A stretch of 27,854 nucleotides of DNA, taken from a virus. Position numbers and translations under genes: made by a program. Every line of letters begins with the position of its first letter. The stretch's first letter is position 1. Location: positions 1 through 27,854 of IMG/VR virus record IMGVR_UViG_3300021364_000132; one strand, 5' to 3'. Shown piece by piece: positions 11,077-27,712 of the stretch. A model generated the notes under the pieces. It worked only from the letters and a program-made list of their open reading frames with translations. It was not told the DNA's origin and made no database searches.

Positions 11077-11099
11077 ATATATTGTGTAAAGGAAATATT

Positions 11100-11441
11100 A
11101 TGACTAAAAGAACAGACGAAGAAATTATTCAAGAAATCAAAGCACTTATCGAAAGCCACGTAAAGCCTGCTGTTGCAAGCCATGGAGGTAATATTGAATT
11201 TGTCTCCTATGATGACGGCGCATTACTATTAGAATTAGGCGGTGCTTGTTCGGGATGTGCAGGTTCAACAATGACACTTAAAATGGGTGTTCAAAATATG
11301 ATGATGCACTACATTCCAGAAATCAAGTCTGTCGAAGCGCAGGACGATCCGTTTAGTACTGTAGACCCTTACTACACTGACCCATTCATGTTTGATGATT
11401 GGGAAACAGAAGATGAGGGTGCTAATGACTCTTCTAATTGA
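11100..11441 (+). CDS. Nfu-type iron-sulfur cluster carrier (NifU C-terminal domain)
   Basis: The start at ATG 11100 follows AAAGGA; an upstream in-frame TTG (11082) has no site. The 113-residue product is a single NifU C-terminal/Nfu domain: H-V-K-P-A-V-A-S-H-G-G near 20-30, E-L-G-G-A-C-S-G-C with the CxxC pair Cys50/Cys53, then a helix ending in the family's I-P-E-I-K-S-V-E-A strand. Two such CxxC motifs from a dimer hold a 4Fe-4S cluster for delivery to client proteins. An acidic aromatic tail (about 80-113) is extra to the domain. In a phage it may sustain host Fe-S enzymes during infection; this is inference. It overlaps the nuclease gene by 17 bases. Confidence 0.88.
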   Translation: MTKRTDEEIIQEIKALIESHVKPAVASHGGNIEFVSYDDGALLLELGGACSGCAGSTMTLKMGVQNMMMHYIPEIKSVEAQDDPFSTVDPYYTDPFMFDDWETEDEGANDSSN

Positions 11442-14284: not shown

Positions 14285-16615
14285 ATGGCCAATGGCATTC
14301 ATATTATCAAAAGAGATGGCACTAAAGAATTATTAAACATTGACAAAATACATTTTGTTGTAGAAGAAGCCTGTAAAGGTTTAGCAGGCGTAAGTAGTAG
14401 CCAAATTGAAATGAATGCTAATTTACAGTTTTACGATGGTATGAGCACAACGGAAATACAAGAAATTCTAATCCGTAGTGCAAACGATTTGATTTCTCTT
14501 GATGCACCTAATTACCAAACTGCTGCTGCTCGTTTGTTAGGTTACACTGTAAACAAAACAGTGTTCGGTCGCTATGAGCCAATTACATTGCGAGAAATGA
14601 TCGATAAAAACATTGAGAGAGGTGTTTACGATCCAGCAATCCTTGATGAATATGATAGCGAAGAAATTGCAAGGATGGATTCATATATTCATCACAAGCG
14701 TGACGAGAATTTTACCTACGCAGGGCTGCGTCAAGTTGTAGACAAATATCTTTGTCAGGACAGATCTTCAGGCCAGTTATTTGAGACTCCTCAGTTCATG
14801 TATATGATGATTGCAGCAACTTTGTTTTCGCAATATCCTAAGCACGAACGTATGCACTATGTAAGGAGATATTATGATGCGACCTCACTTTTTAAAATCA
14901 ACATCCCAACGCCAGTTATGGCAGGAGTCCGCACCCCTGTCCGCCAGTTTGCTTCATGTGTCCTCGTTGACAGTAACGACACTCTTGACAGTATCTTTGC
15001 TTCCGATATGTCTATTGGAAGGTACACTGCGCAGAGGGCTGGCATCGGTATCAACGCAGGAAGAATTAGAGGCGTCAACTCTAAAATCAGAGGAGGAGAA
15101 GTAGCTCATACAGGTATTATTCCGTTCCTAAAGAAGTTTGAAGCAACTGTACGCTGTTGTACACAAAATGGTGTACGTGGTGGTAGTGCTACTACACACT
15201 TCCCGTTTTGGCATCAAGAGATTGAAGATATTCTTGTGCTAAAGAACAACAAAGGCACAGAAGACAACCGTGTACGTAAACTAGACTACTCAATCCAACT
15301 TAACAAAACTATGTACGAAAGATTGTTGAGCGGCGGAGATATTACTCTTTTCTCACCACATGATGTGCCTGGCTTATATGAAGCATACTTTGGTGATGCG
15401 GATGCGTTTAAAGAAATGTATGAAATGTATGAACGCAAAACAAGCATCAAAAAGAAAAAGATTTCTGCAATGGAATTATTTTCAGCATTAATTAAAGAAC
15501 GTGCAGAAACAGGACGTATCTATATTATGAATGTAGATCACTCTAATACACATAGTTCGTTCAAAGACACAGTTTATATGAGTAACTTGTGTCAAGAAAT
15601 TACATTACCAACAAAGCCATTAGAGCACATTGACGACGAGAACGGAGAGATTGCTCTTTGTATTTTAAGTGCAATTAACGTAGGTGTAATTAAAGAGTTA
15701 GACGATTTAGAAGATCTTTGCGAATTAGCAGTTCGTGCATTAGAAGAAATAATTGATTATCAAAACTATCCTATCAAAGCAGCAGAAATTTCTACAAAAG
15801 CAAGACGCTCGCTTGGAGTTGGTTATATTGGACTAGCACATTATTTGGCAAAGAATAAAGTAAACTATGCTGATCAGGAAGCATGGCAACTTGTGCATGA
15901 TCTTACTGAAGCATTCCAATACTATTTGCTACGTGCCAGCAACAAAATAGCGCAGGAAAGAGGTGCGTGTGAGTACTTTAACCGCACTAAATACTCAGAC
16001 GGCATCCTGCCTATAGATACATACAAAAAAGATGTAGATACTATTGTAGAAAACAAATTAAAATATGATTGGGAATCTTTACGCAACGATATTAGAGAGC
16101 ACGGATTACGGCACAGCACACTGTCCGCACAGATGCCTTCAGAGAGCAGTTCCGTTGTGTCGAACGCAACAAATGGTATCGAGCCACCTAGAGGCTACCT
16201 GTCCGTTAAGAAAAGCAAAAAAGGGCCTCTTAAGCAGATTGTTCCACAATATCAAAGTCTTAAGCAACACTACACCTTGTTGTGGGAAATGCCTAGCAAC
16301 GAAGGTTACATCAACGTTGTCGCAGTAATGCAAAAGTTCTTTGATCAAGCTATTTCAGGAAACTGGAGTTACAATCCTACCCAGTATCCAGACAACGAAG
16401 TACCAATGAGTGTTATGATGCAAGACTTGTTAAATACTTACAAGCTAGGTTGGAAAACTTCTTACTACCAAAACACATATGATTACAAAACAGATCCAAG
16501 TGAAATGGTAGATGAACCAGCACACTCATTAGGATGGCACGACAATCAACCAGAGGTTGAACCAGCTACTTTGGCTACAGAAGATGATGAAATGTGCGAA
16601 GCGTGTGCAATTTAA
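14285..16615 (+). CDS. nrdA: Class Ia ribonucleoside-diphosphate reductase, alpha subunit
   Basis: Full length (776 residues, close to E. coli NrdA). An ATP-cone domain covers about 5-95. Cys near 224 (A-S-C-V-L-V) and Cys near 458 (A-L-C-I-L-S) are the redox pair. N-L-C-Q-E near 433-437 carries the thiyl-radical Cys with its Asn and Glu partners. The dimer and specificity region N-K-G-T-E-D-N-R-V-R lies near 320. A Y-Y pair near 735 is on the radical path. The C-terminus C-E-A-C carries the swinging-arm cysteines re-reduced by glutaredoxin or thioredoxin. It reduces NDPs to dNDPs for phage DNA synthesis and sits in an nrdA-nrdB-glutaredoxin group, as in other T4-like phages. Confidence 0.97.
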   Translation: MANGIHIIKRDGTKELLNIDKIHFVVEEACKGLAGVSSSQIEMNANLQFYDGMSTTEIQEILIRSANDLISLDAPNYQTAAARLLGYTVNKTVFGRYEPITLREMIDKNIERGVYDPAILDEYDSEEIARMDSYIHHKRDENFTYAGLRQVVDKYLCQDRSSGQLFETPQFMYMMIAATLFSQYPKHERMHYVRRYYDATSLFKINIPTPVMAGVRTPVRQFASCVLVDSNDTLDSIFASDMSIGRYTAQRAGIGINAGRIRGVNSKIRGGEVAHTGIIPFLKKFEATVRCCTQNGVRGGSATTHFPFWHQEIEDILVLKNNKGTEDNRVRKLDYSIQLNKTMYERLLSGGDITLFSPHDVPGLYEAYFGDADAFKEMYEMYERKTSIKKKKISAMELFSALIKERAETGRIYIMNVDHSNTHSSFKDTVYMSNLCQEITLPTKPLEHIDDENGEIALCILSAINVGVIKELDDLEDLCELAVRALEEIIDYQNYPIKAAEISTKARRSLGVGYIGLAHYLAKNKVNYADQEAWQLVHDLTEAFQYYLLRASNKIAQERGACEYFNRTKYSDGILPIDTYKKDVDTIVENKLKYDWESLRNDIREHGLRHSTLSAQMPSESSSVVSNATNGIEPPRGYLSVKKSKKGPLKQIVPQYQSLKQHYTLLWEMPSNEGYINVVAVMQKFFDQAISGNWSYNPTQYPDNEVPMSVMMQDLLNTYKLGWKTSYYQNTYDYKTDPSEMVDEPAHSLGWHDNQPEVEPATLATEDDEMCEACAI

Positions 16616-16618
16616 TGC

Positions 16619-16647
16619 TTGACACTTGTAGATAAGTAGTATATACT
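16619..16647 (+). promoter_or_regulatory. Sigma70-like promoter before nrdB
   Basis: TTGACA (16619-16624), a 17-nt spacer and TATACT (16642-16647); ATAAGGAA is the ribosome-binding site before the ATG at 16675. It gives nrdB and the glutaredoxin an expression source independent of nrdA. Confidence 0.75.
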
Positions 16648-16674
16648 ATACACAGAGAAACATAAGGAAATCAG

Positions 16675-17778
16675 ATGTCACGCACAGTGTTTAACAAGGA
16701 AAAAGTAGACTTCACTAAAGAAACAATGTTCTTTGGTGCAGAACAAAATACCCAAAGGTATGATACATTTAAGTTTCCAGTATTTGATAAATTAAATCAG
16801 ACAATGCTGGGATACTTTTGGAGACCAGAAGAAGTAAGTTTGCAAAAAGATAGAGCAGACTATGCAAACTTTCGTCCAGAACAGAAGCATATCTTTACTG
16901 CTAACCTAAAGTATCAAACACTGCTAGACAGTGTACAAGGACGTGGTCCTTGTTTGGCTTTCTTGCCTCATGTAAGTTTACCTGAGCTAGAAGGCTGTAT
17001 TGTTACTTGGGACTTCTTTGAAACAATTCACTCACGTTCATATACACATATTATGAAAAACGTGTATCCAGATCCAAGCGAAGTATTTGATACAATTCTT
17101 GATGATGACAAAATTATTCAACGTGCTGTTTCTGTTACTAAACATTATGATGCGTTTAATGAAGCCGCAGATGCATTTATGCACCGTGGTGAAGGTTCGA
17201 TGTATGAAGTCAAGAAGAAACTGTATCTTGCAATGCAAACGGTAAACATTCTTGAAGGATTACGTTTCTATGTTTCATTTGCTTGTACTTTTGGCTTTGG
17301 TGAATTAAAGTTGATGGAAGGCTCTGCAAAGATTATTTCACTTATTGCTCGTGATGAAGCACAACACCTTGCACTAAGCACACACGTTCTTAAACTTTGG
17401 GCTCAAGGCAAAGACGATCCAGAAATGGCTAAGATTGCAAAAGAGTGTGAAGAAGAAGTGTACGAGTTATGGCGTGAGTGTGTTGCAGAAGAAAAAGACT
17501 GGGCTGACTATTTGTTCAAAGATGGTTCGATGATTGGTCTTAACAGCACACTACTGCATCAATATGTAGAGTACATTGCAAACCGTAGACTGAAAGCACT
17601 AGGCTTTGATGCAATCTTTGATGCACCAGTAAACACAAATCCACTACCGTGGACACAGCATTGGTTAAGTTCTTCAGGTCTTCAAGTTGCTCCGCAAGAG
17701 ACAGAAGTTGAAAGTTATGTTATTGGCGGTATTAAACAAGACGTTGATAAAGATATGTTAAAAGGATTTAGTTTATGA
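16675..17778 (+). CDS. nrdB: Class Ia ribonucleoside-diphosphate reductase, beta subunit
   Basis: A 367-residue R2 protein. All iron ligands and the radical Tyr are visible: Asp in L-L-D-S-V-Q-G-R, Glu and His in E-T-I-H-S-R-S-Y, the radical Tyr in the same motif, Glu in I-L-E-G-L-R-F-Y, and Glu and His in R-D-E-A-Q-H. It houses the diiron-tyrosyl cofactor that starts each turnover in NrdA. Its stop overlaps the glutaredoxin ATG by four bases. The C-terminus (K-D-M-L-K-G-F-S-L) should bind NrdA; it differs from the E. coli tail, which suggests specificity for the phage alpha subunit. Confidence 0.97.
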   Translation: MSRTVFNKEKVDFTKETMFFGAEQNTQRYDTFKFPVFDKLNQTMLGYFWRPEEVSLQKDRADYANFRPEQKHIFTANLKYQTLLDSVQGRGPCLAFLPHVSLPELEGCIVTWDFFETIHSRSYTHIMKNVYPDPSEVFDTILDDDKIIQRAVSVTKHYDAFNEAADAFMHRGEGSMYEVKKKLYLAMQTVNILEGLRFYVSFACTFGFGELKLMEGSAKIISLIARDEAQHLALSTHVLKLWAQGKDDPEMAKIAKECEEEVYELWRECVAEEKDWADYLFKDGSMIGLNSTLLHQYVEYIANRRLKALGFDAIFDAPVNTNPLPWTQHWLSSSGLQVAPQETEVESYVIGGIKQDVDKDMLKGFSL

Positions 17779-18026
17779 TTGAGATTTGGGGTAAGCCTGC
17801 TTGTCCGCATTGCGATCAAGCAAAACAGTTTTGCGAAACTAGAGGCTTTAAATATGTGTACAAGCAATTAGATGTAGATTTTACTCGTGAAGAAGTATTT
17901 GAAAACTTTCCGGGTGCTAGGACATTTCCGCAAATAAAAATATTAGATAAAGTAATTGGTTCAAAGGATGACTTCATGAACTATGTAGAAGCAACAGGTT
18001 ATACAGGAACAGGTCATACGCTTTGA
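17775..18026 (+). CDS. Glutaredoxin
   Basis: An 83-residue thioredoxin-fold protein with active site C-P-H-C (Cys10-Cys13), the R-T-F-P-Q-I cis-Pro motif near 50-55, and a G-S-K-D-D-F glutathione-site motif near 62-67. The family reduces the C-terminal cysteines of ribonucleotide reductase. Its translation is coupled to nrdB by a four-base overlap, which supports that role. C-P-H-C is a variant of the usual C-P-Y-C. It corresponds in role to T4 nrdC, but orthology is not shown here. Confidence 0.93.
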   Translation: MIEIWGKPACPHCDQAKQFCETRGFKYVYKQLDVDFTREEVFENFPGARTFPQIKILDKVIGSKDDFMNYVEATGYTGTGHTL

Positions 18027-19380: not shown

Positions 19381-19570
19381 AAAAATATATTGGACAATTT
19401 GTATTTTAGCAGGTATAGCAAGTGCTATTTTTGCACCTATGTATGTAGATTACGAATGGGGAGCAGGAGCCTATATTGCAATAGGTTGGTTTGTATTTTT
19501 ACTTATCTTTGGGTTGGTGGCTTTATTTGCGCCAAATATAAAAAATTATCTTGACAATAAATCACAGTGA
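19373..19570 (+). CDS. Small two-span membrane protein, 65 aa
   Basis: Not recognised. Two hydrophobic segments (about 6-24 and 31-53) separated by a short acidic turn, with Lys at both ends; a small inner-membrane protein. AGAGGA in the preceding gene serves as ribosome-binding site. The tmRNA promoter lies inside its last codons. Confidence 0.65.
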   Translation: MGKKIYWTICILAGIASAIFAPMYVDYEWGAGAYIAIGWFVFLLIFGLVALFAPNIKNYLDNKSQ

Positions 19571-19581
19571 TGCTATAAATA
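19551..19581 (+). promoter_or_regulatory. Overlapping sigma70-like and late promoters of the tmRNA gene
   Basis: TTGACA (19551-19556), a 17-nt spacer and TATAAA (19574-19579) form a near-consensus sigma70 promoter. The same -10 reads TATAAATA (19574-19581), the exact T4 late consensus. One site can thus serve both early and late polymerase, giving tmRNA through the whole infection. Confidence 0.75.
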
Positions 19582-19639
19582 AATCGTAGGCGTTACAAAG
19601 CGTATTTGGACCCCGGGGCGGTACCGGGCGCCTCCACCA

Positions 19640-19692
19640 TAATTACTCTGTAGCGTAAAAACCACAAATTTACGGCGTAGAGTAATTATGAT
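19640..19692 (+). other. Intervening segment of the permuted tmRNA
   Basis: The 10-bp inverted repeat TAATTACTCT (19640-19649)/AGAGTAATTA (19679-19688), with an inner stem CGTAAA/TTTACG (19654-19659/19669-19674), extends the acceptor stem and should be removed by processing to leave the CCA end and the 5' G. Confidence 0.8.
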
Positions 19693-19740
19693 GGGGGCGA
19701 AATAGGATTCGACAGGTAGGCAAGTTTACAAAACACAAAT

Positions 19741-19782
19741 GCAAACGATAACTTTGCACCTGAGTTAGCCCTAGCGGCATGA
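19741..19782 (+). other. tmRNA tag reading frame (ANDNFAPELALAA)
   Basis: GCA resume codon, 13 sense codons, TGA stop. The tag start A-N-D-N matches the alphaproteobacterial style (A-N-D-N-F/Y), and the end A-L-A-A matches the E. coli-type degron recognised by ClpX/ClpA. Confidence 0.9.
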
Positions 19783-19820
19783 TTCACGGGGTTGGTCCAC
19801 CTTGTTACCAAACGGCTAGA

Positions 19821-19851
19821 AAAGTGTTGCAGAGATGCAACACTTTTTTTT
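19821..19851 (+). terminator. Rho-independent terminator of the tmRNA gene
   Basis: Ten-base stem AAAGTGTTGC/GCAACACTTT with a 6-nt loop and a T run. Confidence 0.92.
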
Positions 19852-19946: not shown

Positions 19947-20351
19947 ATGCGTAAGACACTAATCGCATTGGCAGCAGTAATGGCTGCAAGCACAGCACAG
20001 GCAGTAGATTTAGCGCCTGGAGTATCATTAGATACAGAACTAAAAGCATTTCACTTAGTAGATGCAGAAACTAATAACGTGACAATCGAGCCTGTTGTTA
20101 ACTGGACACCAGGTGCAGATGGTCCATTAACATTCTCATTAGGCACATTGGTTACAGTGTATGCAACTGATCATGCAAGTGGCGATGATATTGCAATTAT
20201 GAATGTATTTGAAGATGGGCATCGTCCAGCTATCGATCTAGGTTTTGATTATGATTTATCGGAATCAACTACTGTTTATGGTGACACATCATGGAACCTA
20301 AACGATGAAGATCGTGGAGAAATTGAAGTAGGTGTTTCATTTAACTTCTAA
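19947..20351 (+). CDS. Secreted outer-membrane-type beta protein, 134 aa
   Basis: The ATG at 19947 is chosen because it has AAAGGAAA upstream and begins a textbook signal peptide (M-R-K-T, hydrophobic core, A-Q-A at 17-19). The mature part (about 115 residues) has alternating beta strands, is acidic, and ends G-V-S-F-N-F, the terminal-Phe pattern of outer membrane beta-barrels. It is too short for a standard porin, so a small barrel or periplasmic beta protein is likely. It forms its own unit between a late promoter and a strong terminator. A surface change that blocks rival phages is one possible role; this is inference. Confidence 0.7.
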   Translation: MRKTLIALAAVMAASTAQAVDLAPGVSLDTELKAFHLVDAETNNVTIEPVVNWTPGADGPLTFSLGTLVTVYATDHASGDDIAIMNVFEDGHRPAIDLGFDYDLSESTTVYGDTSWNLNDEDRGEIEVGVSFNF

Positions 20352-22151: not shown

Positions 22152-22676
22152 ATGAGATTTATTATAGGCACCATCTTAGGCGTAGCAGTTCTGTTCTCTA
22201 CAAATGCTACAATGGCAGAAGTTAAGTCATTGTACACTGCAGAGAGCAATCCTGAAGAGTATTGTCTTGCTTTGAATATCTATTACGAAGCAAGAAGCAG
22301 CAGTAAGGCAGACCAGGCGGCAGTAGCAGATGTTGTATTGAACAGAGTTAAGGACACACGGTATCCAAACACTATTTGCGAAGTAGTAAAACAAGGTAAA
22401 CAAAAGCCAAGTTGGAAAGATCCAAACAAAATGGTAATGGTGCGTAATGCTTGTCAGTTTAGTTGGTATTGCGACGGCAAAGCAGATGATCCATCAGATC
22501 AAGACGCTTGGATTTCGGCACAAACACTTGCTTATTATATGCTTTGGGACAAACAGTTTGTTGGAATAACAGAAGGCGCAACACACTATCATGCAAAGTA
22601 TGTAAATCCTAAATGGGCAAAACATAAAACACTTATTGGACGGATTGGACAACATATATTTTATAGATGGGATTAA
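22152..22676 (+). CDS. SleB-type cell wall hydrolase (candidate endolysin)
   Basis: A 174-residue protein with a signal-like N-terminus (hydrophobic 3-16, T-M-A at 20-22) and one Hydrolase_2/SleB domain. Y-Y-E-A-R carries the catalytic Glu46; A-V-A-D-V-V-L-N-R-V follows near 60, then T-I-C-E-V-V, C-Q-F-S-W-Y-C-D-G near 103-111, and A-T-H-Y-H near 145. The Cys pairs could form disulfides in the periplasm. The family cuts peptidoglycan glycan strands. The signal peptide suggests export by the host Sec system, or a signal-anchor-release lysin that needs no holin. It is translated three bases before the next membrane protein. Confidence 0.88.
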   Translation: MRFIIGTILGVAVLFSTNATMAEVKSLYTAESNPEEYCLALNIYYEARSSSKADQAAVADVVLNRVKDTRYPNTICEVVKQGKQKPSWKDPNKMVMVRNACQFSWYCDGKADDPSDQDAWISAQTLAYYMLWDKQFVGITEGATHYHAKYVNPKWAKHKTLIGRIGQHIFYRWD

Positions 22677-22679
22677 TGT

Positions 22680-24737
22680 ATGGCATTAGGAATATTAGTT
22701 TTAATTACCGCTCTTACAATTAGCGGTGTAGCAATTTATTACTCTATCGCAGGGCTTGTGGCAATCTTTGCCGCAGCCGCTTTCCCTATTATGGTTATGG
22801 GCGGCGCATTAGAAATCGGCAAACTAGTCACTGCGGTATGGTTACACAAGTATTGGAAGCAGGCAACTTGGTGGCTTAAAACTTATTTGACAACTGCTGT
22901 AATTGTGCTGATGTTTATAACAAGCATGGGCATTTTTGGTTTCCTTTCAAAGGCACATATTGAACAGACAAGTGCAAGCGAAGAAAGTATTGCACAGGTT
23001 GAACAAATTGATAGTGAGCTAGGTAGATTAAATGCTGTTATAGATCGTGCTGAAGCTAAGATAAAACAACTAGAGTCAAGCGGCACAGGTGCAGATGCCA
23101 ATATACAAGCACAAATTGATAAAGAGCAGGAACGTATAGATAAAGCATTTGAACGTATTCAACCTGCTATTACACAGCAAAATAAAATTATAGAAGATGC
23201 TAGAGCAGGCGATGCAAATCGAACAAAACCATACGAAGATCAACTAACAAGTATTCAAGCAGAAATACTTAGACTTGAAACTAGTGCAAGAGAATACGAA
23301 GGAAAAATTGCAAATCTAAGTGCTGATACAAGTGCAGTAGATCCTTTACTTGAACAAATAGATACAATTGAAAAAGAAATTATTCGTGTAACAAACCAAG
23401 TTAATAGTGGTGAACGAGATCAGATTAGAGCAGGGCAAGCAATTATTGGTGTAACAAGTGATGGAGCATTTGGTAATAATACCCGTAAAGCTCTGGTTGC
23501 TTGGGTTGCGGCCCAGCGTGAACGCATAACACAAATACAAGGCGACATCAGCAAACTTCGTCAAAATGCTACAACTACAGTTGACACAGAACGTGAACGC
23601 CTAGCAGGTGTTGTTAAAGATATTCGACAGACACAGATACCTGCATTAAAAGATCGCGAATTGACTATGTTAAGCAAGATCGACGAAGTACGTCAAACAG
23701 AGTCACCAGTAATTCAAACAGCAAGAGATGAAATACAAAGACTACGCAAAAGTGCAGAAGACCAGGTTGCTAACAGCCAAGCACTGATTGAACGTCTAAG
23801 ATCACAACTAGCACAGACAGACAAGGCTGATGAAATAGATGCGGCAGTAGATGAGCAACTAGCACGTATCAAAAAAGCAGAAGACGAGATAGACACATTA
23901 ACAGAAGAAAAATATGCTTTACAAGCAGAATACAGGAAATTAGAAGCAGAAGTAGGACCAATCAAATACATTGCAGAATTTGTATATGGAGACACAGCAG
24001 ACAATACTGTTCTTGAGGAAGCAGTTCGTTGGGTGATACTTATTATTATATTTGTATTTGACCCACTAGCAGTCTTATTGCTGATAGCAAGCCAATATAC
24101 CTTTGAGTTTAGAAAACGCAAAGATGACCGCGGTGACTGGCTTCGGCAATACGAGCAAGCAAGGGCACAACGAATAGTTGACAACCCTGGCTATACTGTT
24201 AATACTCCTGAGAAGGAGACTGAAGAAAAAAATGAAGAAGGAGAAGTAGATGATATACCACCTACTAAAGATCCAATTGATGAGCCTACAAATGATGGAC
24301 ACAATGATGAAAACCAACTTGAGCTACCATTACAAGAAGTCAATGTGGACAGCGATGAACGAATGGGGCAAGATAGCGATGGGGCAAGTGTTCCAGCAGG
24401 GCAGACAGTGGAGGAGGACACAGGACCTTTACTTACAACTGCCGAGGAACAAGAAAGAGCCCAAGAACTAGAAGAACAAGAACAACTTGAAGATTGGCAA
24501 AAAGCTAAACGTCAATGGAAAGATGAAAATCCAGATAGCACTATCAAGGAACAAAAGCAAGCATATATACAAGGTAAGTTAGATGAAGTTCCTTGGCAGA
24601 AGTATTTGCCTACTAAAAAGTATATCATGCTAGAAAAAGGCGAGCAAGTCAAGAAAGAAACTAATCCAACATATGAACAAAATGCCGAGCAAGGCAATAA
24701 TACAATATGGCAACGGATACAACGTGACAAAGATTAG
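22680..24737 (+). CDS. Large membrane-anchored coiled-coil protein with a peptidoglycan-binding-like segment
   Basis: A 685-residue protein. Three membrane segments lie near residues 4-22, 27-46 and 68-90. A long Glu/Gln-rich coiled coil (about 100-440) is interrupted near 256-271 by G-V-T-S-D-G-A-F-G-N-N-T-R-K-A-L, which resembles the core repeat of peptidoglycan-binding domain 1. A further hydrophobic pair lies near 449-475. The last 200 residues are acidic, low-complexity and probably cytoplasmic. I recall similar 'coil-containing' membrane proteins in marine T4-like phages. A spanin-like or envelope-remodelling role next to the lysin is plausible but not shown. Confidence 0.7.
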   Translation: MALGILVLITALTISGVAIYYSIAGLVAIFAAAAFPIMVMGGALEIGKLVTAVWLHKYWKQATWWLKTYLTTAVIVLMFITSMGIFGFLSKAHIEQTSASEESIAQVEQIDSELGRLNAVIDRAEAKIKQLESSGTGADANIQAQIDKEQERIDKAFERIQPAITQQNKIIEDARAGDANRTKPYEDQLTSIQAEILRLETSAREYEGKIANLSADTSAVDPLLEQIDTIEKEIIRVTNQVNSGERDQIRAGQAIIGVTSDGAFGNNTRKALVAWVAAQRERITQIQGDISKLRQNATTTVDTERERLAGVVKDIRQTQIPALKDRELTMLSKIDEVRQTESPVIQTARDEIQRLRKSAEDQVANSQALIERLRSQLAQTDKADEIDAAVDEQLARIKKAEDEIDTLTEEKYALQAEYRKLEAEVGPIKYIAEFVYGDTADNTVLEEAVRWVILIIIFVFDPLAVLLLIASQYTFEFRKRKDDRGDWLRQYEQARAQRIVDNPGYTVNTPEKETEEKNEEGEVDDIPPTKDPIDEPTNDGHNDENQLELPLQEVNVDSDERMGQDSDGASVPAGQTVEEDTGPLLTTAEEQERAQELEEQEQLEDWQKAKRQWKDENPDSTIKEQKQAYIQGKLDEVPWQKYLPTKKYIMLEKGEQVKKETNPTYEQNAEQGNNTIWQRIQRDKD

Positions 24738-25362: not shown

Positions 25363-26520
25363 ATGCGTCTTGAGTCAGATAACAAATTAGATTACAAAGA
25401 TGTTTTGATACGTCCTAAGCGTAGTACATTAGGCAGTCGTAAACAAGTTGATCTAGAACGAGGCTATACATGGCGTAATTGGCAGCCAGAAGATATGACT
25501 ATGGAGCAAATACGTCCTGATAACCGTCATTGGCGTGGTGTTCCTATTATGGCTGCTAACATGGACGGTGTTGGTACGTTCGCTATCGCCGATAAATTGG
25601 CTGCTGGCGGCTTATTCACTTGCTTGAAGAAAACTTATTCTGTGCAAGAGCTTGTGGGTTATTTTGACACTGATATGTATGAACGTACAAACTATGTTGC
25701 TATGAGTATCGGTATTACTGATACTGACCATCAAAAGTTTCGTGACGTATACGAGCAAGCAGACGGTAATCTAAAATATGTTTGTATTGATGTAGCAAAT
25801 GGGTATAGTGAGCGTTTTGTTGCGTTTGTACGGCAGTTTAGACAGCTGTATCCACAAATTGTAATTATTGCAGGTAACGTAGTTACTGGCGAAATGACGG
25901 AGGAACTTATCCTTGCAGGAGCTGATATTGTTAAAGTGGGCATTGGTCCCGGGAGTGTTTGCACTACTCGCATACAAACTGGTGTTGGATATCCGCAGTT
26001 ATCTGCGGTTATCGAGTGCGCAGATGCCGCACATGGACTTGGGGGTCACGTTATTGCTGACGGCGGGTGTACTTGCCCTGGAGATGTCGCTAAAGCCTTT
26101 GCAGGCGGAGCAGATTTTGTTATGCTTGGCGGGATGCTTGCTGGGCACGATGAAGGCGGTGGGGAAGTAATCACCAAATATTACGCAACAGGTGAACACT
26201 GGTTTAAGCAAAATGACGAAACCTATCATCCTGTAATAGAAAACAAGCAGTTTGTACAATTCTACGGAATGAGTTCAAAGGCCGCGAACGACAAACATTT
26301 TGGTGGCCTTAAGGAGTATAGAAGTAGTGAAGGACGAGAAGTTCTTGTGCCTTACAGAGGAGCAGTGGGTAATACTATTCAAAATATTTTGGGTGGGTTG
26401 CGTTCTGCTTGTACTTACGCAGGTGCAGTAAGATTAAAGCATCTAAGTAAATGCACCACGTTTGTGCGTTGTACACAAACGCACAATGCAGTATACGAAA
26501 AAAACACAGTCGGATTTTAA
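25363..26520 (+). CDS. guaC: GMP reductase
   Basis: A 385-residue TIM-barrel enzyme of the IMPDH/GMPR family. It aligns closely with E. coli GuaC from memory: [12 protein letters not shown] near 13-24, M-A-A-N-M-D near 63-68, [10 protein letters not shown] near 141, the catalytic loop [11 protein letters not shown] (active Cys near 203), and [15 protein letters not shown] near 236. There is no CBS domain, which favours GMP reductase over IMP dehydrogenase. It converts GMP to IMP with NADPH and ammonia release, feeding adenine nucleotides. It starts two bases after the S21 stop. It is slightly longer than E. coli GuaC (about 347), mainly by inserts near 40-60 and 275-290. Confidence 0.93.
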
Positions 26521-27247: not shown

Positions 27248-27712
27248 ATGACAAGACTAACAACTCTAGACCTACCTAACTTTCACAGAGCAACTATTGG
27301 CTTTGACAGACTATTCAATGAACTAGAACGTTCATTTGCAAACAGTCCAAACGGTAACGGTTATCCTCCATACAACATTGCACAAATCAACGAAGACGAG
27401 TATATGATCTCTCTTGCGGTTGCTGGCTTTGGTATGGATAACTTAGAAATTACTAAAGACGGTAATATTTTGAGAGTAGAAGGAACAGCTCCTAAAGGAG
27501 GAGATGAAGTAAACTATCTACACAAGGGCATCGGTGGCCGAAACTTCCGTAGAGAGTTTACACTTGCTGATCACGTAGAAGTGCATTGTGCAAACCTTGA
27601 ACTAGGTATGCTAAACATCCACTTGAAGCGTGAAGTTCCAGAAGAGTTACAACCTAAGCGTATTAAAATCGTAGATGGTAACAATATTCTAGAAGGCGAA
27701 ACTCAAGAATAA
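27248..27712 (+). CDS. Small heat-shock protein Hsp20 (IbpA-type)
   Basis: A 154-residue protein. The N-terminus (F-D-R-L-F-N-E-L-E) is typical of IbpA-type proteins. The alpha-crystallin domain covers about 40-130, with Y-N-I at its opening, L-A-V-A-G-F, the L-x-V-E-G-T strand, G-I-G-G-R-N-F-R-R-E-F and a G-M-L-N-I-H-L near 118-124. The C-terminal I-x-I motif is R-I-K-I (139-141). It holds unfolded proteins for refolding. Hsp20 is common in marine T4-like phages, where a role in virion folding or stress is suspected. Stacked promoters imply expression throughout infection. Confidence 0.93.
   Translation: MTRLTTLDLPNFHRATIGFDRLFNELERSFANSPNGNGYPPYNIAQINEDEYMISLAVAGFGMDNLEITKDGNILRVEGTAPKGGDEVNYLHKGIGGRNFRREFTLADHVEVHCANLELGMLNIHLKREVPEELQPKRIKIVDGNNILEGETQE

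Follow-up and report, generated by a model that had tools for sequence, protein, structure and literature searches.

Analyzing a 27,854-base linear IMG/VR virus record (hereafter the window, meaning this whole stretch), we found that positions 19586 to 19782 are a circularly permuted two-piece tmRNA of the alphaproteobacterial type. Judged by its sequence and that of its relatives, this phage-encoded gene very probably belongs to a structural subclass, restricted to phages, from which pseudoknot PK1, present in almost all known tmRNAs, has been lost. What is new here is this structure, a short form that seems to lack PK1; phage carriage of permuted tmRNAs is already known. The RF04321 permuted tmRNA covariance model scores 77.6 bits at 19589-19782 (gathering score 47) and the RF01849 alpha_tmRNA model 69.3 bits at 19547-19822 (gathering score 50), so the Infernal comparison proposed in the initial annotation bears out its claim that a virus carries a permuted two-piece tmRNA with its own tag. 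ARAGORN makes no tmRNA call in the window.

Every part that had been read from the letters, namely the acceptor piece, the hairpin spacer, the coding piece, the G3-U pair and the tag, can be located on the plus strand, and they follow the alpha-type order of acceptor piece, spacer and coding piece. Both Rfam models recognize the tRNA-like domain with T arm, acceptor stem and CCA. Based on these models and cofolding, the acceptor piece (the 3' half of the mature tmRNA) spans 19586-19639 and ends with CCACCA at 19639; we infer its exact 5' end, 19586, from the position just past the TATAAATA box described below. It contains the P2b strand GUAGGC (19586-19591, pairing with 19724-19729), the P2a strand UAUUUG (19603-19608, pairing with 19713-19718), a T arm with the alpha-type loop GGCGGUA (19612-19628, from the RF01849 alignment), and the acceptor stem 3' strand CGCCUCC followed by an encoded ACCA (19629-19639). 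The acceptor stem, GGGGGCG/CGCCUCC, carries the alanine identity pair G3-U as G19695-U19633. A 53-nt hairpin spacer (19640-19692, fold z -5.1 versus shuffles), presumably excised, separates the two pieces; across relatives its length ranges from 9 to 256 nt. The 5' part of the coding piece (19693-19740) includes the acceptor stem 5' strand (19693-19699), the D region, the P2a strand (19713-19718) and the P2b strand GUUUAC (19724-19729), and closes with an 11-nt A-rich linker, AAAACACAAAU (19730-19740), between P2b and the tag. The tag reading frame (19741-19782) encodes ANDNFAPELALAA at 19741-19779, starting with the resume codon GCA, ending in a degron and followed by the stop UGA (19780-19782), and this frame is kept across the class. 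Cofolding the two pieces of the window gives the acceptor stem, the T arm and a bridging P2 of 6+2+6 pairs.

The promoter and terminator that had been proposed to flank the gene are also found. TTGACA (19551-19556), 17 nt and TATAAATA (19574-19581) form a promoter-like element at 19551-19581, which a stricter sigma-70 pattern demanding a final T misses. With at most one mismatch and within 50 nt upstream, TATAAATA occurs at 60 of 86 short-class loci versus 17% in shuffles, and in 43 of those 60 it lies exactly 34 nt 5' of GGAC. The same box is readable both as a -10 box and as a T4-type late-promoter motif; we set aside a reading as late promoter only, since a -35-like box is also present at many loci. 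Downstream, a hairpin followed by a T run (19818-19849, fold z -5.3) forms the terminator, which is kept in locus L141 with compensatory changes (AAAAGUGUUGC/GCAACACUUUU vs AAAGGUGUUGC/GUAACACCUUU). Between stop and terminator, the post-stop region (19783-19815) diverges from a pseudoknot candidate that lies 3' of the stop in 58 of 62 relatives, and this departure counts against our main explanation. Matches to mir-7973 and MicX near the locus fall below the gathering score and look like chance.

No PK1 is found between P2 and the resume codon of the window tmRNA, which we therefore file as a structural variant and not as a canonical alpha_tmRNA. Its resume codon lies 48 nt from the first base of the coding piece, whose part 5' of the tag falls about 37 nt short of the length seen in bacterial alpha tmRNAs. 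In our alphaproteobacterial genome sample, 266 of 289 genomes have an alpha_tmRNA; among the 54 readable loci, 51 have a distance of 80-101 nt, with PK1 visible in most, recognized by the motif CGG..GGTACC..CCGTTATCGG. The three outliers (55, 59 and 125 nt) look like tag misreadings by our script, because PK1 is visible in those sequences. By contrast with this bacterial range, the distances of 223 viral permuted tmRNAs, a set enriched for the short form by a second scan, are bimodal, with 131 at 45-49 nt and most of the remainder at 77-90 nt; the first scan, unselected for shortness, gave 22 short forms among 107. Most of the listed values of 67-70 nt come from long forms read from an upstream in-frame position. 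Four loci at 57-59 nt (L041, L054, L093 and L011) seem to follow the same rule as the short class, with a longer P2 that stops 11-12 nt 5' of the resume codon.

Covariation among 70 unique acceptor/coding pairs of the short class supports the helices that remain. The acceptor stem is paired in 100% of cases with 51 both-side changes, and G3-U occurs in 70/70. P2b is paired in 95% of cells, from GUAGGC/GUUUAC in the window to GAAGAU/GUCUUC, GUGGAC/GUCUAC and AUAGAC/GUCUAU elsewhere; none of 1000 inter-locus strand swaps matches this level, and slid registers pair at 31-55%. The 20 unpaired P2b cells fit five sequences (the L052 group) whose alignment is off by one column, and they are paired when read by eye. 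In addition, the two P2a pairs beside GGAC covary (A-U/U-A and G-C/U-A). Throughout the short class, P2b is followed by 11-13 A-rich nt, with A at -4, and then GCA. In the alpha consensus, PK1 takes up about 24 nt between P2 and the resume codon, more than this interval offers, and we conclude that short-form tmRNAs most probably lack PK1. When run without constraints on all loci to measure the linker, RNAcofold returned spurious pairs and failed to tell short forms from long ones, which counts against our main explanation; we therefore base the argument on length, motif and covariation.

The window locus could instead be an ordinary alpha-type two-piece tmRNA like that of Melnitz, with a shortness of no importance and PK1 present in a compressed or tertiary form. 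Both Rfam models match, two-piece tmRNAs of phages are already published (PMC9004378), and Pelagibacter phage HTVC008M, at 75 nt to the resume codon, shows that length varies; however, 11-13 A-rich nt after P2b against about 24 nt for PK1 alone, together with the bimodal lengths, make this unlikely. The Methylophilales phage Melnitz (PMC9004378; MZ577097), like the window, combines a permuted alpha-type ssrA with a tag of its own (ANDNYVPVDYALAA) and an ALAA degron in a marine myophage, but its resume codon lies about 82 nt from the coding start, which leaves space for PK1, and signs of PK1 are seen there. It also has a glutamine riboswitch at the tmRNA 3' end, which is absent near the window tmRNA although the Melnitz locus, run as a control, scores. 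HTVC008M (NC_020484), a marine T4-like phage, shares the permuted alpha-type tmRNA and differs in its distance and its tag, ANFNEYALAA; read by eye, its PK1 (L297 1661-1768) seems reduced to a CACU-GGCG-AGUG hairpin resembling an engineered Escherichia coli variant. The two-piece tmRNA of alphaproteobacteria (RF01849; Caulobacter) shares gene order, T loop, D region, G3-U and the tag start ANDN with the window, in contrast to its 80-101 nt before the resume codon and a mostly visible PK1.

PK1 has been described as the one pseudoknot that tagging cannot do without (PMC3968760), and a comparative study found it in all groups except mitochondria, with Oenococcus oeni and a partial plastid sequence lacking one PK1 helix (PMC1168896). 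The loss in O. oeni is natural, as in the window, but affects helix 4 alone and leaves helix 3 as a hairpin, whereas the window has neither helix. In E. coli, a hairpin or a single strand can substitute for PK1 with tagging still possible (Tanner 2006 and Wower 2009, as cited in PMC3968760 and PMC4236655); that tmRNA is engineered and one-piece, unlike the natural two-piece tmRNA of the window, in which P2 itself reaches the linker. We think it somewhat probable that the short class is a phage-restricted and widespread lineage, nearly invisible to ARAGORN, that performs trans-translation without any pseudoknot upstream of the tag, and that P2 itself, ending 11 nt 5' of the resume codon, sets the frame instead of PK1. 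The engineered replacements suggested that PK1 merely aids folding, while reviews describe it as required for tagging, and natural PK1 loss may be the deletion experiment that laboratories tried to imitate. A widespread natural class without PK1, in which P2 covaries and the linker is fixed, would allow a direct test of what determines the resume codon, and structural studies would gain a very small, naturally occurring tmRNA.

Comparing short-class sequences reveals selection on the tag. In the commonest tag pair, with 19 unique nucleotide versions, every change is synonymous except F/Y at one codon, and the window tag ANDNFAPELALAA is identical in loci L132, L141 and L194. These patterns bear on whether the RNA is a decoy that occupies SmpB, AlaRS or stalled ribosomes and so inhibits host trans-translation, for which the tmRNA-like RNA of mycobacteriophage DS6A (PMC11915505) is a precedent and the long-held view of PK1 as necessary for tagging (PMC3968760) would be a reason. 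The DS6A RNA has no coding sequence, though, whereas the short class keeps the tag frame, resume codon, A at -4 and terminal AA degron with mostly synonymous changes, and a hairpin or single strand can stand in for PK1 in E. coli; a decoy is thus improbable. An unusually long tag of 31 codons, ANDNVAQPKFMKKRNTFARKVGFTKGMALAA, was observed in short-form loci L047, L177, L182, L189 and L222, and tags of 29-31 codons also occur in long-form loci L035 and L051.

We infer instead that the window RNA works in trans-translation, and ribosome rescue during infection, as the initial annotation supposed, is plausible. No SmpB gene was found in 14 virus records (the window, HTVC008M and twelve others, including several fragments), so the phage probably relies on the SmpB of its host. 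In the course of events that we propose, a single transcript would begin right after the TATAAATA box, and host tRNA-processing enzymes would remove the spacer, giving an acceptor RNA of about 54 nt and a coding RNA joined by the acceptor stem and the shortened 6+2+6 P2. Host AlaRS would charge this complex via G3-U, and host SmpB would deliver it to stalled ribosomes. There, the resume codon GCA would be fixed by the end of P2 and the 11-nt A-rich linker with A at -4, a role played elsewhere by PK1 and linker. The ribosome would then append ANDNFAPELALAA, a degron with a ClpXP-type LAA end, stop at UGA and be released during infection.

Searching for the short form with the pattern GAAATAGGN{2,4}CGACN{16,33}GCNAACGANAA, we found it in at least 119 viral contigs, with five matches in 84,980 bacterial and archaeal species genomes. 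Because the pattern used for this bacterial comparison demands the motif GAAATAGG and ANxN or ANxK-like tag-start codons, it would overlook bacterial short forms of another kind. Four of the five genome matches lack both GGGG and an acceptor arm. The fifth is a real short tmRNA in an ‘Opitutia’ MAG, on a contig that is homologous to viral loci over 7,771 of 8,000 nt and is therefore most likely phage DNA. An acceptor arm lies upstream in 118 of the 120 listed short-form candidates, which include the window and the Opitutia MAG contig. These counts weigh against a recent pick-up from a bacterium that itself bears the short form. The alpha-type T loop and D region would fit such an origin; the pattern occurs in no bacterial chromosome among the 84,980 species, 51 of 54 alpha loci are long and the other three look like misread tags, leaving this origin quite unlikely. 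A decaying relic or assembly artefact, which the missing ARAGORN call might suggest, is contradicted by the layout, compensatory pairs and open tags that recur in at least 118 contigs from many samples and is extremely improbable.

The short form is common to at least 118 viral contigs. ARAGORN recognizes two among 118 short-form genes and assigns an incorrect tag to one of the two, compared with 66 of 121 sequences called in a mixed set. A 2022 phage tmRNA survey relied on ARAGORN (PMC9004378), and a 2025 tmRNA database obtained its 79 phage sequences by ARAGORN and similarity search; since both are ARAGORN-based, they have probably under-recorded the short class, most of which such surveys miss. 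The class is undescribed in the literature that we searched, of which open-access coverage is partial, and BLAST gave no match to a short form in cultured phages. Readable cultured phages with a permuted tmRNA (Melnitz, DSS3_MAL1, RcXuper, RcRudolph and Kabachok) all have the long form. Permuted tmRNAs as such had been considered uncommon in phages of this kind, which does not hold in that form. In the 2022 survey, 402 of 18,146 phage genomes gave 133 unique tmRNA structures, 53 of them two-piece and 50 of these marine or aquatic (PMC9004378), and our pattern scan of viral contigs gave at least 120 rows, and 114 of the loci listed have a full permuted arm and coding piece. Being both published and common in viral contigs, phage-borne permuted tmRNAs are neither new nor rare.

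Mapping the tmRNAs onto their gene neighborhoods, we found them 0.4-6 kb downstream of nrdB and on the same strand wherever both genes are present, in 35 of 35 listed loci. Among NrdB relatives with 91-94% identity, some carry the short form (L128, L141, L198) and others the long one (L087, L024, L044), and the NrdB tree has well-supported branches that require at least three changes of tmRNA class. Moreover, L125 and L148 have NrdB proteins only 53-54% identical to that of the window and tmRNA cores that are 97% identical. Because NrdB and tmRNA similarity do not match, the two genes appear to have reassorted between phages, and near-identical short tmRNAs in phages with about 53% NrdB identity suggest exchange between phages; for the class changes, independent loss and exchange are not fully separable. 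tmRNA genes would thus move among phages at a conserved site downstream of nrdB. The earlier proposal of acquisition from an alphaproteobacterial host holds for the alpha-type ancestry, but the short form is in no bacterial chromosome among the 84,980 genomes, and the exchange suggested here is between phages. Its description of the phage as T4-like is unproven for the window. Most other long contigs with a short tmRNA carry Gp23 and the T4 portal, but neither was found in the window or in a 236-kb contig with the same tag. In one record (G291, the record of L042, 151,681 bases), Gp23 matches at 110962-112079 are fragmented with in-frame stops, which may reflect an interrupted gene or a contig of poor quality.

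Other features of the window were also recorded. A search for relatives through a neighboring 227-aa protein confirmed none. The nrdA, nrdB and glutaredoxin genes are consecutive at 14285-18026, and the named phages that come closest to the window in NrdB are cyanomyoviruses, at about 65%. Immediately downstream of the tmRNA, 19947-20351 encodes a small protein with a signal peptide-like start, without a match in Pfam or PHROG, which is kept in place in L024, L128, L087, L141 and L194 and, by eye, in L074. Further downstream, a 685-aa membrane and coiled-coil protein (22680-24737), conserved in several relatives, adjoins a cell-wall hydrolase gene (22152-22676), possibly as a lysis or envelope module. 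Candidate auxiliary metabolic genes are an IMP dehydrogenase/GMP reductase-like gene (25363-26520), HSP20 (27248-27712) and a NifU-like gene (11082-11441).
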